Positions 1,225 through 37,579 of a stretch of 64,000 bases of DNA are shown piece after piece. Source of the stretch: Chloroflexota bacterium (GTDB taxonomy: Bacteria > Chloroflexota > Dormibacteria > Dormibacterales > Dormibacteraceae). The stretch spans positions 1-64,000 of the forward strand of contig VBEG01000033.1 in the NCBI GenBank assembly GCA_005882115.1, read 5' to 3'. The notes below the pieces were generated by a model. It searched no databases. It was not told the origin of the DNA and was given only the letters and a program-made list of their open reading frames with translations. Numbering within the stretch: the first letter of the stretch is position 1; each line of letters begins with the position of its first letter. Made by a program: the position numbers and the translations under genes.

Positions 1225-3549
1225 ATGCGTCCCGCGCCTCGCGCATGGTTGGTTCTGGGCACTTGCTGCGCCGTCCTCAGCGCCTCGGCAGCCTGTTCCC
1301 CCGCGCCGCAGGCCGGCAGGTCTTCTTCCTCACCAGCAGTCTCCGGATCTCCGTCGGCCCCGCCCGCGACCTTGCCGGGAGGATGGAACGCCGGCGGCGA
1401 CCTCAGCACCACGCGTTGGGGGCAGATGGTTGGCGTGCTGCTGCAGGGTGGGCGCGTACTCGTGACGGGGACCTCAAGCGATGGCCGCGGAGTCGGCAAC
1501 GTCGACATCTACGACCCCGCCGGCGGGTGGTCGGTGGGGCCAAAGCTGCCGAACGACCGCATCGGAGCAGTGGCCGCGCCGCTGCCGGGCGGCCGTTCAC
1601 TGCTGGCCGGCGGTAGGCCCGATTTTCGGGGCGACTGCTGCCCGCCAGGTCCTCTCGCCACCGCGATGACATACAACCCGAGCACCGGCACCTGGACCAA
1701 GGCACCAAACATGAGTGTCGCTCGCGCCTACGCGACGGCAACGCCGCTCCCCGACGGTCGCGTCCTGATTGCGGGTGGCTACGATGCCCAGATTCGGCCC
1801 CTGGCCAGCAGCCAGTTCTTCAATCCGACCTCCTCGACCTGGACGACCGGCCCGACGCTCACGCATGGCCGGTTCCGTCAGTCCGCCGTGCTGCTCAAGG
1901 GTGGTGGGGTCCTAGTCGTCGGTGGGGCTGACCAGGAGAACCCCGATCGGCTGCTCAGCAGCGCTGAGTTGTTCGACCCGGCGACCGCACGATGGCTCGG
2001 CGCCGGCACCATCGGCACTCCTAGAGCACAGTTCACTCTCACCGCCCTGGCCGATGGCCGCGCGCTTCTCGCGGGTGGTCTCGGTGCGGACGGATCGACC
2101 ATCCTCCGTTCCACAGTTCTCTACGACCCCGCCAAGAACGAGTGGTCGCAGGGCCCCGACCTGGCAAGCGCTCGCACCTCGCACGCGGCAGGGGTCCTCA
2201 CCGACGGCAGAGTGCTTGTCTCCGGCGGCGCCGACCAGGCCGGCCGGCTCGCCTCATCTGAGTTGTTCGATCCCACGACCAACTCCTGGTCCGCCACCGG
2301 CGCCCTGGCCACCGCGCGCAGCAACCACCTCGCAATCTCACTCCCGAACGGGCATGTCCTGGTGGCCGGCGGCAGCGGGTCGCGGGATGCGTTGGCGAGC
2401 TCTGAGCTGTACGACCCGTCGGCGAAGGGAATGCCCGCCGCGCCCCGGTCGCCCGCGGGGCCCGGACGCTGGCAGCTGGCCGCCACCAAACCAATCCCCA
2501 TCGACTCCTATACCGGCTCGGCGCAGCTCCTGTCTGATGGCCGCGTGTTGCTTGTGCCCAAGTACGGCAACGCAGACTTCCAGGTCTACGACCCCAAATC
2601 CGATGCTTGGAGTACGCCGTTCAGCCGCAAGGTTCCACCGTGCAACACCTGCACGATCGGCTCACCAAGCCCACCGGAATTCCTAGCCGCCCCTCTTGGC
2701 AACGGCAAGGTTTTCCTTCTCACCGTCGACCCGCAGCGCGCCATCGCGGCCAAGACTGAGGTAATCGACCTGAAGACTGGCACCGCGACGCTGGTGACTT
2801 CGCCAGGCAAGATCGGCCAGTCGCGTCTCGAACTCCTCCCGGACGGCAGGATCTGGGTGACAGCCTTGCAGCAGTTGGACAGGCACGCATTGCTCTACAA
2901 CGTGACCACAGACCACTGGACAACCACTTCCAATGTTCCGCTCGGCCTGGCTGAGAGTGGGGCCGATATGCAAACCGTCACCGCGATTCCGGGCGGTCGA
3001 GTGCTTGTGGTCGGCTCTCGGAAGGCGATGGTTTACGACCCTGCCTCGGGAGGCTGGACCGATGCCGGTTCGTTCCCCAGCGCGTGGTCGCAGTTCTCGG
3101 CCACCGGACTCGCGTCAGGCGACGTACTTGTCGCCGGAGGCACAATGCTGACCGGCACGACGCCAGAAGGCGCGCCGATATTCGCGGTCAACTCTCAGAC
3201 GATGCTTTGGGAACGCACCACCGGGCAGGTCAGACCAGGGCAGAGCATGCCGGTGGGCCTGTACTACCACTCCGCCGCGCTGCTTGGGGACGGACGGGTG
3301 CTCCTCGCGGGCGGATCCGACGCGGTTGGAATGCACACCAGCGCCGACCCCGTGACACGAGCCGAGATCTACGATCCCGTGGCACGTAGCTGGTCGCTGG
3401 CCGCCTCGCTTCCCGTGGCGAGGTATCAGGCGATCGCGGTCCCGCTCAATGACGGACGGGTATTCCTCGTCGGAGGATCCGGGATGTGGCTGGGCGCTTT
3501 GCTCCCAAGCGAAGGTCAGCCATCACTTATCTTCACGCCTCAGCCGTAA
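1225..3549 (+). CDS. Secreted kelch-repeat lipoprotein
   Basis: A 774-residue protein with a basic N-terminus, a hydrophobic stretch and a cysteine at residue 23 (LSASAACSP), read as a somewhat weak lipobox. A linker rich in Ser/Pro follows. The rest is made of about a dozen kelch-type units of ~50 residues, each with an LPDGRVLxAGG turn, an ASSELFDP-like strand and a W of the sort STWTTGP. This gives one or two beta-propellers related to the galactose-oxidase central domain. No copper-ligand Tyr/Cys pair is obvious, so an enzymatic role is not supported. It is likely an extracellular binding protein. The ATG at 1225 places the signal peptide correctly. Confidence 0.8.
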   Translation: MRPAPRAWLVLGTCCAVLSASAACSPAPQAGRSSSSPAVSGSPSAPPATLPGGWNAGGDLSTTRWGQMVGVLLQGGRVLVTGTSSDGRGVGNVDIYDPAGGWSVGPKLPNDRIGAVAAPLPGGRSLLAGGRPDFRGDCCPPGPLATAMTYNPSTGTWTKAPNMSVARAYATATPLPDGRVLIAGGYDAQIRPLASSQFFNPTSSTWTTGPTLTHGRFRQSAVLLKGGGVLVVGGADQENPDRLLSSAELFDPATARWLGAGTIGTPRAQFTLTALADGRALLAGGLGADGSTILRSTVLYDPAKNEWSQGPDLASARTSHAAGVLTDGRVLVSGGADQAGRLASSELFDPTTNSWSATGALATARSNHLAISLPNGHVLVAGGSGSRDALASSELYDPSAKGMPAAPRSPAGPGRWQLAATKPIPIDSYTGSAQLLSDGRVLLVPKYGNADFQVYDPKSDAWSTPFSRKVPPCNTCTIGSPSPPEFLAAPLGNGKVFLLTVDPQRAIAAKTEVIDLKTGTATLVTSPGKIGQSRLELLPDGRIWVTALQQLDRHALLYNVTTDHWTTTSNVPLGLAESGADMQTVTAIPGGRVLVVGSRKAMVYDPASGGWTDAGSFPSAWSQFSATGLASGDVLVAGGTMLTGTTPEGAPIFAVNSQTMLWERTTGQVRPGQSMPVGLYYHSAALLGDGRVLLAGGSDAVGMHTSADPVTRAEIYDPVARSWSLAASLPVARYQAIAVPLNDGRVFLVGGSGMWLGALLPSEGQPSLIFTPQP

Positions 3550-20687: not shown

Positions 20688-22136
20688 CTAGGCTCGGGTG
20701 ACGGCCCGCAGCTTGCGCGAAGGCCTGAGCCTCATAGGCAACGTGAAATAGAAGTTGGATCCGCGCGCGGTCGCGCTATCGAACCAGATGCGCCCCCCAT
20801 GCATCTCGACGATCTGGCGCGCGATCGGCAAACCGAGACCGGTGCCACCGTTGCTGCCATGAGTGCCGTTGCGAGCGTCGCCGGGGTTGGGGTAGGACTC
20901 GAGGAGGCCGCTGGCAGAGCCGGCGGGCATGCCGGGGCCGTGGTCCTTGACCGTCACCATGATGTGATCGCCAGTGCTCTCGCTCGTCACCGCGATGTCT
21001 GTGCCCGGCGGCGAGTACTTGAACGCGTTGTCGAGGAGGATCGTCAGGACCTGGGACAGCTTGTCCGGATCGCCCGAGACGGTAGGTAGCGCCGGGTCGA
21101 GGCTGACATCGATGTTGTGTCGCGGGTTTTGGTCGCGGGCTCCATCGACCACGCCGGAGATGAGCTGGTTGACGTCCACCTGACCGATCTTGAGGACGGC
21201 TCGACCGCCTTCCATGCGATCCAGCTCGAGCATATCGTCGAACGCGTGGTCGAGCCGTTCGGCATCCCGATAGATGTCGCTGGCGAACGCCCTCACCTTG
21301 GGTAGGTCGAGGTCCTCCGAATCGCGGATGAGCTCGCTGAAACCTTGAATGCCGACGAGCGCGGTGCGGAACTGGTGGCTGATCCGGGTGAGAAATTCGC
21401 CTTTCATCTTGTTGAGTCGTTCGACGACAGCGAGGTTGGCGAGCGCTGTCGTCTCCGCCTCCCTGATCAGTCGACGGCGCCACCGATCCGCCAGCAAGAC
21501 GACCGGGAACATGGACGCGTAAAAGAGGGTCAGTCCCGCGGCCAGAATGATGTACAGCTGCCGCGCCTCGCTGTCGATGGCCGCCTGAACCGGGGCGTAG
21601 GGCAGGTAGAGCTCGAACGCCCCGCTGGGCGAAGAGTTGCCATCGAATACCAACGGTACGTAGATCTCGATCAGTGGGCCCTGCAGATCGTCGCCGGAGT
21701 TCTCCGGCGCGTGACCATCCGTGACCCCAGCATGTGGGTGGCCGGCGAACGCGCCGGCGAGGTCGTCCTCGATCTCGAACGTTCGCCCGATGATCGAGTG
21801 GTTGTCCGAGTACACGACTGTGCCGCTGCGGTTCCAAACCTTGATCCGCCGTACGTCCTGGTGCACCGCCGCGCCTTGCAGTTTGTCATCGACGTCCGCA
21901 ATCTGCACCGCGGTCAGCCCCTCGCTCAGCTCCCGGGGATTGAGAAGCGGCCGAACCGCCACCTGAGTGATCAGGGTGGCGCTGCTCTGGGCTGTATCCA
22001 GGTAGCGCTGCTGGAGGTCGACGTTCAGCTCGTGGCCGAGGATGGCGCCGAGCGCAACGACTGGCACCAAGGCCAGCAAACCGAAGCGCGCCAGCGCTCC
22101 CAGCGAGTTAGGTCCGAGGTGTTTCGTGGCGGGCAT
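20688..22136 (-). CDS. Membrane sensor histidine kinase
   Basis: A 482-residue kinase. TM1 is near residues 13-32 and an extracytoplasmic sensor of ~170 residues contains RIKVWNRSGTVVYSDN, a Cache-like signature. TM2 (LYIILAAGLTLFYASMFPVVLL) is followed by HisKA with His254 in RISHQFRTALVGIQGFSEL. The H box reads HQFR instead of the usual HELR. HATPase has the N box LLDNAFKYSPPG, DHGPGMP and GTGLGLPIARQIV. No response regulator is adjacent. It lies just upstream of the small membrane gene and treY-treZ-glgX on the same strand. ATG 22136 has a GGGGTG-like site, and an ATG ten codons upstream is the alternative. Confidence 0.86.
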   Translation of the reverse strand: MPATKHLGPNSLGALARFGLLALVPVVALGAILGHELNVDLQQRYLDTAQSSATLITQVAVRPLLNPRELSEGLTAVQIADVDDKLQGAAVHQDVRRIKVWNRSGTVVYSDNHSIIGRTFEIEDDLAGAFAGHPHAGVTDGHAPENSGDDLQGPLIEIYVPLVFDGNSSPSGAFELYLPYAPVQAAIDSEARQLYIILAAGLTLFYASMFPVVLLADRWRRRLIREAETTALANLAVVERLNKMKGEFLTRISHQFRTALVGIQGFSELIRDSEDLDLPKVRAFASDIYRDAERLDHAFDDMLELDRMEGGRAVLKIGQVDVNQLISGVVDGARDQNPRHNIDVSLDPALPTVSGDPDKLSQVLTILLDNAFKYSPPGTDIAVTSESTGDHIMVTVKDHGPGMPAGSASGLLESYPNPGDARNGTHGSNGGTGLGLPIARQIVEMHGGRIWFDSATARGSNFYFTLPMRLRPSRKLRAVTRA

Positions 22137-34375: not shown

Positions 34376-34417
34376 CGCGCCGGAAGTCTATCGCTCCGTC
34401 TGCCGAATTTCGTGGCC

Positions 34418-35605
34418 TTACGCCGCCCAGCGCCTTCCAGGTCCCCGGACCCTTCGCGGAATCACTCTTTCCGGCGGGATGAACTTCACGCCTTCCCCAG
34501 CCCTGATCACCTGCCAGCGACCTTCGTGAACCAACCGATGGTGGTAGTAGCAAAGAGGAAGCAGGTTGGGCAGGTCGCTTCGCCCGCCATGCGCCCAGAA
34601 CTCGAGGTGATGCGGGCTCGTCATGTTGACCGGCCGGTCGCAGCCGGGGCCTGCGCAGCTGGAATGCCGCGCCTTGAGTGCTCGCCATTGCGAGGGCGAG
34701 ACCGAGCGCGTCGCCCGACCGACGTCGACCACGACTGAACCGGCCTTCAGGATCCGATGCAAGGCGCCATCGCACGCCAGGCGCTGTACGGTCTTGCTCG
34801 AGATCGGCATCCCGCTCTCGAGCTTGGAGGCTGCTGCGCCGAGCTCGCCTTTCAGACCTTCGATGGTGGTGCTGATGCTGATGTGCGGCCGCACGCCGTT
34901 TCGCCGCGGCAAGGTGCCGGCGCCCATCGCATGATGCATCGCCTCGACCAGCGCGTCAGCGCGCCGCTGCTTGGCCGTCCTCCGATCGTGAGCGCCGAGC
35001 GGCTGGGACAAGGAGTCGATCGCCGTCTTGAAAGCCGCCCCGCCCGCGGGATCAAGCCAAGCGTCGAGGCGGTATATGCCGCCAGAGGTTTGGCTGATAT
35101 CGAGGGAACGCAGCTCGTAGTCCTGTTCGACCTTGCCCTCGAAGCCCTCGACGTCCCAAAGGACGCGAGCCTCATAGGTGAGGTAGCGCAGGTCCTTGAT
35201 CGAAAAGCGTTGGGCGAACCCGATCCAGTCGTTCTCGTCGATGTACTCCCGCTTCTCGCCCACCTGCTCGCTCAGATGACAGATCACCGCCGTCGCCTGA
35301 TAGCCGATCTGGCCTGAGCTAAGGGCCTCAGCGATCTTGGGCAGGTTGCTCAGCTGGTCGCCGACGCAGAGGCGATCGGCCGCCGTCGTCTTCGACATCT
35401 GGCACTGATTGGCCACCCACGAGCACGCACTTTGGCCGGCAAGAAGGTGATCGCCCCGCTTTCTGCCCCGGCTGACGACCGTGCACAAAGCGCCCTGGAG
35501 ACGGTCGATCACCGCAGACAGACGCCGAGGATCTACGAAATCGAGGTCGGCATCACGTTCGAAATCGCGGGCCGCATCTTCGAGCGCTTGTAGGTCAGCC
35601 GACAT
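34418..35605 (-). CDS. DUF222/HNH nuclease (13E12-repeat type), SOS-type promoter
   Basis: A 395-residue protein. The DUF222 domain (residues ~15-300) is helical with CSWVANQCQMSKTTAADRL and GQIGYQATAVICHLSEQVG. A C-terminal HNH nuclease domain carries CAGPGCDRPV and HHLEFWAHGGRSDLPNLLPL, then CYYHHRLVHEG. Cys, His and Asn of HNH are intact. In M. tuberculosis several members of this 13E12 family are LexA-regulated. Here a near-perfect LexA box lies 12 bases before the ATG. These genes are often multi-copy and mobile, but no flanking element is visible. Confidence 0.88.
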   Translation of the reverse strand: MSADLQALEDAARDFERDADLDFVDPRRLSAVIDRLQGALCTVVSRGRKRGDHLLAGQSACSWVANQCQMSKTTAADRLCVGDQLSNLPKIAEALSSGQIGYQATAVICHLSEQVGEKREYIDENDWIGFAQRFSIKDLRYLTYEARVLWDVEGFEGKVEQDYELRSLDISQTSGGIYRLDAWLDPAGGAAFKTAIDSLSQPLGAHDRRTAKQRRADALVEAMHHAMGAGTLPRRNGVRPHISISTTIEGLKGELGAAASKLESGMPISSKTVQRLACDGALHRILKAGSVVVDVGRATRSVSPSQWRALKARHSSCAGPGCDRPVNMTSPHHLEFWAHGGRSDLPNLLPLCYYHHRLVHEGRWQVIRAGEGVKFIPPERVIPRRVRGPGRRWAA

Positions 35606-35611
35606 GCTAAT

Positions 35612-35640
35612 ATAATACGAACTTTCGTTCGAGAGAGCAA
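35612..35640 (-). promoter_or_regulatory. LexA-box promoter of the DUF222/HNH gene
   Basis: On the minus strand TTGCTC (35640-35635) is followed after exactly 17 bases by TATTAT (35617-35612). The spacer holds TCGAACGAAAGTTCG, completed by T at 35617. This matches the mycobacterial LexA consensus TCGAAC-N4-GTTCGA at 11 of 12 positions. The expected transcription start, ~7 bases past the -10, is at or within a base of the ATG at 35605, so the mRNA is probably leaderless. LexA binding would block the promoter. Confidence 0.75.
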
Positions 35641-35705
35641 GTGTTGCGCTGTAAATTTATATTGAAAGGACCCGCCCAACCCTCGTGCCCGGCCCATTCT
35701 AAATC

Positions 35706-35930
35706 CTCACTCCGGGTGGGTTTCTGGGTCGCCGGACCTCGCCCTGACTCCCCTCACCGCCCTCACTCCGGACTGGCTCCGGGTCGCCCGACCTGGCCCT
35801 GACACCCCCTTTCACCGTCCAACTCGCGTCTCCCTGCGTCGCCGGGCTCCACGCGCACACCCCTTCACTGCCCTAACTCCGTGTGGGTCAGAGTCGCCGG
35901 ACCTGCCCGTGACTCCAGTTCACGGGCCCC
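35706..35930. repeat. Four degenerate ~56-base tandem repeats
   Basis: Units begin at about 35706, 35762, 35820 and 35873. Each reads roughly CTCACTCCG, then GGGTCGCCGGACCT, then CCCTGACTCC, then TTCACCGCC. Units 1 and 2 are the most alike; 3 and 4 are diverged and slightly different in length (periods 56, 58, 53). The block is strongly pyrimidine-biased on the plus strand and has no open frame of note. It fills the gap between the SOS promoter and the terminator of the small hydrophobic gene. Confidence 0.7.
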
Positions 35931-35940
35931 AGAAACACGA

Positions 35941-35962
35941 CGAGCGCCCCGCAGGGCGCTCG
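35941..35962 (-). terminator. Rho-independent terminator after the small hydrophobic gene
   Basis: A perfect 9-base stem, CGAGCGCCC at 35941-35949 and GGGCGCTCG at 35954-35962, with a CGCA loop. Read on the minus strand it is followed by TCGTGTTTCT, a modest T-rich tail. It lies 22 bases after the stop of the 56-residue membrane protein and shields the tandem repeats and the DUF222 gene from read-through. Confidence 0.7.
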
Positions 35963-35983
35963 CCTAAGAGTCTTGACTACCCG

Positions 35984-36154
35984 TTACCAGCGGTACCAGC
36001 GCCCGCCGCCAGAGCCGCGGAACACGAACCCGAGGGCCCAAAGGATGAGCCCGATCAGAAGGATGATCCACAGAATCTGCAACCCGGATGCGAGCAGTCC
36101 GCCACCACCGAAGATGAGCAGCAGCAGGACCAAGACGATCAGAGCAGCAACCAT
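35984..36154 (-). CDS. 56-residue hydrophobic protein, lmo0937 family-like
   Basis: Start ATG 36154, preceded on its strand by AAGGAGG twelve bases away, and stop TAA at 35984. The protein starts MVAALIVLVLLLLIFGGGG and continues LQILWIILLIGLILWALGF, ending GGGRWYRW. The Gly-rich turn between two short hydrophobic helices and the aromatic/Arg tail match the lmo0937-type hydrophobic stress proteins. Function unknown, membrane-located. It is followed by a good terminator and preceded by the GlsB-like gene on the same strand. Confidence 0.82.
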   Translation of the reverse strand: MVAALIVLVLLLLIFGGGGLLASGLQILWIILLIGLILWALGFVFRGSGGGRWYRW

Positions 36155-36240
36155 CTCGGTTGTCCACCTCCTTTCCTTGATTGGCGGCCCGGATGGGGCC
36201 GGCCCTCGCCGGCACCCGAACGCCTGTGCGAAAAGAACTC

Positions 36241-36612: not shown

Positions 36613-37579
36613 CTATATATGGGCGGGCCGGGCGAACTCCTGGCTGCCGCCGAGGTCAGAGGTGGCCACGTGGCACGCGGCCTCGTGCTCGGGCCGGAGC
36701 AGGCGCAGCAGCGGGGTGACGCGCGAGCACTCCTCGATCGCGTAAGGGCAGCGGGCGCGGAAACGGCATCCTTCCCCCGGGTTGATCACCCGCGGCGGCT
36801 CCTGGACCTCCGTCTTCTCCGGCAGCGAGATCGGCGCCCGCGGGTCCGGCACGGCCGAAAGCAAGACGGTCTGCGACGTAGCGCGCGCTCGCGATGTCAT
36901 GTGTGATGTACAGGAACGAGATGCGCTCTCTCCGGCGGAGGGTGGCCATCAGGTTCAGCACGCCGATGCGGACCGAGACGTCGAGCATGGATACCGGCTC
37001 GTCGGCCAGGATCAGCTCGGGCCGGCATGCGAGCGCCTGCGCGAATCCGATCCTCTGCCGCTGCCCCCCGCTCAGCTGGTAGGGATATTTGCTAAGAAAG
37101 TCGCGCGCGGGCACAAGGCCGACCGCTTCGAGCAGGCGCTCCGCCTCGTCTTGACGGCCCCGCCGGCTGAGGTCCGGCCGGTGCAGCTTCAGGGCCCGCA
37201 TGATGCCGTGCGAGACCTGATAGACGGGGCTCAGCGACCCGTAGGGGTCCTGGAAAACCATCGGCACCCGGCCGCGGTACTCCAGCACCTCGCGCCTCGA
37301 GCGCAAGCCCTTCACCGACTGGCCCCGGTGCAGGACGTCGCCGGCCGTCGGTTTGTAGACCCCGGCGATCAGACGCGCGATCGTGCTCTTGCCGCTGCCA
37401 CTCTCGCCGACCAGGGCGACGATCTCGTCCTCGTGGATCGAGAGGTTGATGCCGTCGACGCCGTGCAGGTAGCGACTCGAAAGGAACCCGCCAAGACGGA
37501 AATGCTTGGTGAGGTCGACAGTGCGCAGGAGCTCCCTTGCATCCTCGCGGGGCCGCAGCGGCAGATCGGCGACCGTCAT
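36613..37579 (-). pseudogene. Peptide-type ABC ATPase DppF/OppF, interrupted
   Basis: Translation from 37579 gives a good OppF-like ATPase: GESGSGKSTIARL, FQDPYGSLSPVYQV, LSGGQRQRIGFAQALA, LILADEPVSMLDVS and the H-loop YITHDIASARYVADR. After YVADR (near 36866-36870) the frame turns to low-complexity Ala/Gly sequence. The missing C-terminus resumes at the same point in another frame as LLSAVPDPRAPISLPEKTEV, with the Cys-containing OppF tail GCRFRARCPYAIEECSRV. By comparison with the DppD partner about 29 residues between ADR and LLSAVP are absent. So there was a deletion of roughly 85-90 bases not divisible by three. The gene overlaps dppD by 4 bases. Confidence 0.8.

Follow-up and report, generated by a model that had tools for sequence, protein, structure and literature searches.

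A predicted LexA operator within the core promoter of a DUF222/HNH gene, probably leaderless, in a soil Dormibacterota genome

A 13E12-type DUF222/HNH gene, located in a 64,000-nucleotide stretch of DNA (the window) from a Dormibacterota soil MAG, appears to carry a LexA operator inside its core promoter and to be expressed as a damage-induced, leaderless nuclease gene. We give this reading a probability of roughly 87%. The operator, its geometry, the LexA encoded in the same genome and the conservation of the arrangement are read directly from sequence; that the gene is repressed and induced, that transcription starts precisely on the ATG and that the protein is an active nuclease are inferred. 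LexA bound in the promoter spacer would block RNA polymerase, and DNA damage would free the promoter through RecA-stimulated self-cleavage of LexA. Transcription would then start on the A of the ATG, and translation of the resulting leaderless mRNA would yield an HNH nuclease acting on DNA during the SOS response.

The minus strand from 35663 to 35603 reads AATATAAATTTA-CAGCGCAACAC-TTGCTC-TCTCGAACGAAAGTTCG-TATTAT-ATTAGC-ATG (features in Table 1). Within it, TCGAACGAAAGTTCGT matches the mycobacterial SOS box TCGAACN4GTTCGA at 11 of 12 positions, fills the 17-bp spacer between TTGCTC and TATTAT and shares one base with the latter, the first of the -10 hexamer. An earlier note on this DNA had described such a box filling the 17-base spacer of the DUF222/HNH promoter, and the sequence bears this out. 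The operator thus overlaps the core promoter, at a position conserved in the family, which is the arrangement taken here to mark a member of the LexA/SOS regulon. Six base pairs separate TATTAT from the ATG, placing the first base of the start codon 7 nt past the -10 hexamer. Relatives carry TTGACA/CTTGAC or TGGAC near the position of the -35 hexamer. A simple sigma-70 scan did not call this promoter.

Table 1. Coordinates of the DUF222/HNH locus in the window and of the lexA locus in the same genome
Feature	Position	Strand	Basis or remark
DUF222/HNH (13E12-type) gene, 395 aa	34418..35605	-	ORF; Pfam PF02720, E 5.2e-34
Predicted HNH nuclease region, residues 313-364: Cys pair / HH / N / CXXHH / H	34514..34669	-	Alignment, profile matches
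ATG, also the predicted start of a leaderless transcript	35603..35605	-	-10 register, rarity of Shine-Dalgarno sequences in relatives
-10 hexamer TATTAT	35612..35617	-	5/6; TANNNT register in relatives
Putative LexA/SOS box TCGAACGAAAGTTCGT	35617..35632	-	Sequence, family conservation, same box type at lexA promoter
-35 hexamer TTGCTC	35635..35640	-	Sequence; weak, 3/6
AT-rich element AATATAAATTTA at -58 to -47	35652..35663	-	6 genomic copies; distal UP-element position or second operator
Divergent gene pair of lexA and a LysM/YneA-like gene	L014 1173..1484 and 1610..2224	- and +	Several LexA boxes between

Six copies of the AT-rich element AATATAAATTTA were counted in the 3.36-Mb genome, against none of its reversed control, and each stands exactly 58 bp upstream of an ATG. 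In five cases this ATG begins a complete or partial DUF222 gene; the remaining copy belongs to the same promoter, repeated at a contig end. With the ATG taken as +1, the element lies at the distal UP-element position, and as an UP element it may compensate for the weak -35 hexamer. Congeners have palindromic AATGTAAATTTACATT forms of the element, so that a second regulator could also act there. Further upstream, imperfect repeats of roughly 80 bp were seen by eye at 35690..35960 of the window; a DNA search found no other detectable copy of this repeat-rich stretch in the genome. Stretches resembling CGGTGAAGNGGGTG precede other DUF222 promoters.

As a motif alone, the box is unremarkable. In the window, where another 11/12 match lies at 21238, one-mismatch matches to the SOS box are slightly more numerous than in shuffled sequence, and exact CGAACN4GTTCG sites number 9 in the 3.36-Mb genome vs. 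13 for the reversed control, with no genome-wide enrichment. The site is non-random because its position and spacing are conserved across the family, not because of motif counts. Two of the nine exact sites share the 14-mer CGAACGAAAGTTCG, and each precedes the ATG of a DUF222 gene by exactly 26 bp; others fall in the divergent promoter of lexA and a LysM (YneA-like) gene, where a Y-family polymerase gene begins, and near a gene of ImuA/RecA-like type. When the genome was searched for the operator followed by a start after 12/13 bp, five matches were obtained, and the -10 was in register only in two, both of them DUF222 genes. The comparison was extended to the DUF222 genes of 61 genomes (137 genes with a 5' region), scoring a box when at least 8 of 10 positions matched and its distance to a start codon in frame was one of those fixed by the layouts, with the reversed palindrome as control. 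A box was present at 35/36 genes in the window's genus (control 2/36), at 39/40 in the other genera of its family (control 0/40) and at 14/59 in other families (control 0/59), most genes outside f1 having none. The layout is therefore nearly invariant in the window's family, with fixed spacing in 74 of 76 members vs. 2 of 76 for controls, and these comparative data refute a chance palindrome match in an AT-rich promoter, a reading that the second window match and the lack of enrichment might have invited and to which we give virtually no credence. Each of the two closest groups has a single member without a recognisable box in register. In the genus, this is L004 of the window's own genome, a disrupted copy with TGAACATTCGTTCG just upstream of the likely ATG. 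The L004 copy (1240..2247) has an in-frame TGA and is probably broken, and the LexA-type box is still there.

Genes with the LexA-type box in the promoter spacer (layout A) also share the register of the -10 element. TANNNT starts exactly at -12 from the start codon in 45/58 genes and at -13 in 8 more, while a Shine-Dalgarno-like sequence was found in only one of the 58. This register and the near absence of Shine-Dalgarno sequences make leaderless initiation the best reading, and the proposal that transcription of the window gene starts on the ATG is thereby well supported as a prediction for DUF222 genes. The layout can also serve as a rule for predicting the start sites of these genes by computation. 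Genes whose proteins are about 35% identical share the promoter, and many of its boxes have an asymmetric GTTTG right half.

A search for lexA in the window's genome was successful. The encoded protein matches TIGR00498 with 220 bits and has LexA_DNA_bind and Peptidase_S24 domains, and the promoter of the gene carries CGAACGGCCGTTCG, a box of the same type. The divergent orientation to the LysM (YneA-like) gene is the arrangement seen in Bacillus. Among 30 lexA promoters sampled across the window's and related genomes, 29 carry a box scoring 9/10 or better, and in many cases more than one; these include GTTTG half-site variants (CGAACAAAGGTTTG) that are common at DUF222 genes. The same palindrome before lexA, GTTTG form included, points to LexA, and not to a repressor specific to DUF222 genes, as the protein that reads the operator. 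That the palindrome could instead be read by such a dedicated regulator, or by the DUF222 protein itself, is suggested by the association of the layout with DUF222 genes and by the asymmetric right half of many copies; given the lexA promoters, the box at the Y-family polymerase gene and the experimental link of M. tuberculosis family members to LexA/RecA (PMC4181829, PMC8151990), we regard this as very improbable.

LexA control of the 13E12/DUF222-HNH family is already known from M. tuberculosis. The 13E12 HNH genes are discussed within the LexA-controlled set of that species (PMC4181829), and five putative HNH endonucleases show RecA-dependent induction by mitomycin C (PMC8151990), in agreement with the earlier note. 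The window gene belongs to the same DUF222 plus HNH family and has the same operator class, TCGAACN4GTTCGA (PMC4181829; PMC8151990). The Dormibacterota family differs from the M. tuberculosis genes in having the box at nearly every member, at a fixed distance and with a predicted leaderless start. The host belongs to Dormibacterota and not to Actinomycetota, so that the mycobacterial examples come from a different phylum as well as a different genus. The lexA promoters of the same genomes likewise have CGAACN4GTTCG boxes, but several per promoter vs. one per DUF222 promoter. The lexA gene of M. tuberculosis has a leaderless SOS transcript (PMC2897130), in which transcription and translation start coincide as predicted for the DUF222 genes; it is, however, a different gene, and in some DUF222 genes the operator itself includes the ATG. 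Outside Dormibacterota, 20/46 DUF222 genes score at least 9/10 vs. 0 for the control. The Prescottella and Rhodococcus genes have a TTGACT-box arrangement with 29 bp from box to start codon, Actinoplanes and Catellatospora genes have 25 bp, and some Actinomycetota members have no box. LexA-type control of DUF222/HNH genes outside Mycobacterium, as predicted from these promoters, is thus strongly supported and wider than first proposed. Of the conserved DNA-damage role suggested for the family outside that genus, the part that stands is conserved, apparently damage-responsive regulation; a conserved function in repair would be an inference beyond it.

In several other genera, the operator contains the start codon (CGAAC-ATG-CGTTCG) and the -10 lies just upstream of the box. 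In this layout B, the operator is about two helical turns further downstream than in layout A, and its counts at d=7 are upper limits, as some of the 'ATG' matches at this distance arise from the NNATGTTCG half-site itself. A tree built from 77 proteins largely separates the layout B genes from those of layout A, which come from both phyla, with 19 changes of layout label vs. a shuffled mean of 34.

The sister family f3 has DUF222 genes that mostly have no LexA box and instead carry a different palindrome, GACAGACAGCTGTC, in most cases 38 bp upstream of the ATG. Its form GACANACAGCTGTC was carried by 31 non-f1 DUF222 genes, 28 of them with the palindrome 38 bp before an in-frame start codon. 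All f3 genomes have 6-14 copies of it and two other genomes have one apiece, whereas the control gave none. The f3 palindrome is also found at genes for RmuC and YajQ-like proteins. At one f3 locus, an HTH-WYL-WCX gene at L309:5212-6174 lies between SbcC-like and rmuC genes, with the palindrome upstream of the cluster on either side. This may resemble the WYL-type DNA-damage regulation of PafBC and DriD (PMC6789036, PMC11804915, PMC12340889), in that GACAGACAGCTGTC is shared by DUF222, rmuC and SbcC-like clusters around an HTH-WYL-WCX gene. If the start codon is +1, the CTGTC of the f3 palindrome lies near -26, a region contacted by PafB in PafBC promoters (PMC11804915). By contrast, the PafBC motif is non-palindromic, whereas the f3 motif is palindromic; that the WYL protein reads it is our hypothesis. 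A PafC-like regulator as the sole explanation of the palindrome was rejected, because PafC-like matches of similar length are also present in f2 genomes without the motif and are therefore not exclusive to f3. The GACANACAGCTGTC copies (L265-L294; examples L309 773(-) and 8996(+)) may mark a second DNA-damage regulon.

These variants raise the tentative idea, whose odds we place slightly short of even, that DNA-damage control of DUF222/HNH genes is fixed across phyla while the control itself changes hands or place. It would be exerted by a LexA operator in the spacer, by a LexA operator containing the start codon or, in f3, by a WYL-type activator that would sense ssDNA, recognise GACAGACAGCTGTC and also drive rmuC and SbcC-like genes. 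The family seems to have switched between two regulators of the DNA-damage response, and so offers a natural series. As far as the literature searched shows, three features appear new: the rigid cross-phylum geometry, operators that include the start codon, and what looks like a transfer of control to another palindrome.

The product of the window gene is a predicted HNH nuclease. The match to PF02720 reaches 118 bits (cut-off 24.4), and both the DUF222 domain and the conserved His/Asn/Cys motif are present, with an intact HNH-type C-terminus. In an alignment of 12 relatives, C317, C322, H332, H333, C352, H355, H356 and H360 are invariant and N347 nearly so. The alignment profile matches the HNH domains of IscB, Cas8f-HNH and McrA, and the C-terminus also matches PHROG HNH families. 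The structure model is of low confidence (pTM 0.42), and a Foldseek search with the whole chain of this weak model gave no significant match, only a short HNH-like local one (4h9d). A role in anti-phage defence was considered and dropped, since PADLOC gave no match, as was an operon with the downstream LURP-one gene, which is found without DUF222 in relatives.

DUF222 copies number 0-14 per genome, and some are broken or at contig ends. The window interval 34376..36240 corresponds to a syntenic empty site: in relatives, the transglycosylase-associated and LURP-one-like genes adjoin without DUF222 between them. These empty sites and the variable copy number indicate that DUF222 genes are accessory. 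Comparison of the empty sites in relatives revealed no target-site duplication or conserved ends, and the DUF222 protein has almost no phage or plasmid relatives; on these grounds, and because the upstream repeats have no other genomic copy, the idea of a mobile element was rejected. It could still be argued that the SOS box is real and the gene mainly a selfish, homing-like element that spreads via SOS-induced recombinational repair and has no role in host repair. Copy number, empty sites, broken copies and the HNH domain all speak for this; the missing ends and duplications and the scarcity of phage or plasmid relatives speak against it, as does the retention of the promoter across such divergent proteins, and we consider it the less likely account, with perhaps one chance in three. 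A damage-induced nuclease encoded by accessory, multicopy genes may serve DNA processing in repair, its own spread, or both, and we rank DNA processing during repair first and SOS-timed self-spread second. In this large, multicopy family, damage control appears nearly obligatory and would work through a rigid, predicted leaderless promoter in two phyla, which suggests that the activity is wanted only when DNA is broken. Its function is thereby narrowed to repair, DNA processing or SOS-timed spread, and so made testable.

Elsewhere in the window, an oligopeptide-type ABC ATPase ORF (36656..37579, minus strand) has a C-terminus that departs from its family after 'DIASARYVADRLA', possibly through a frameshift or an assembly error.
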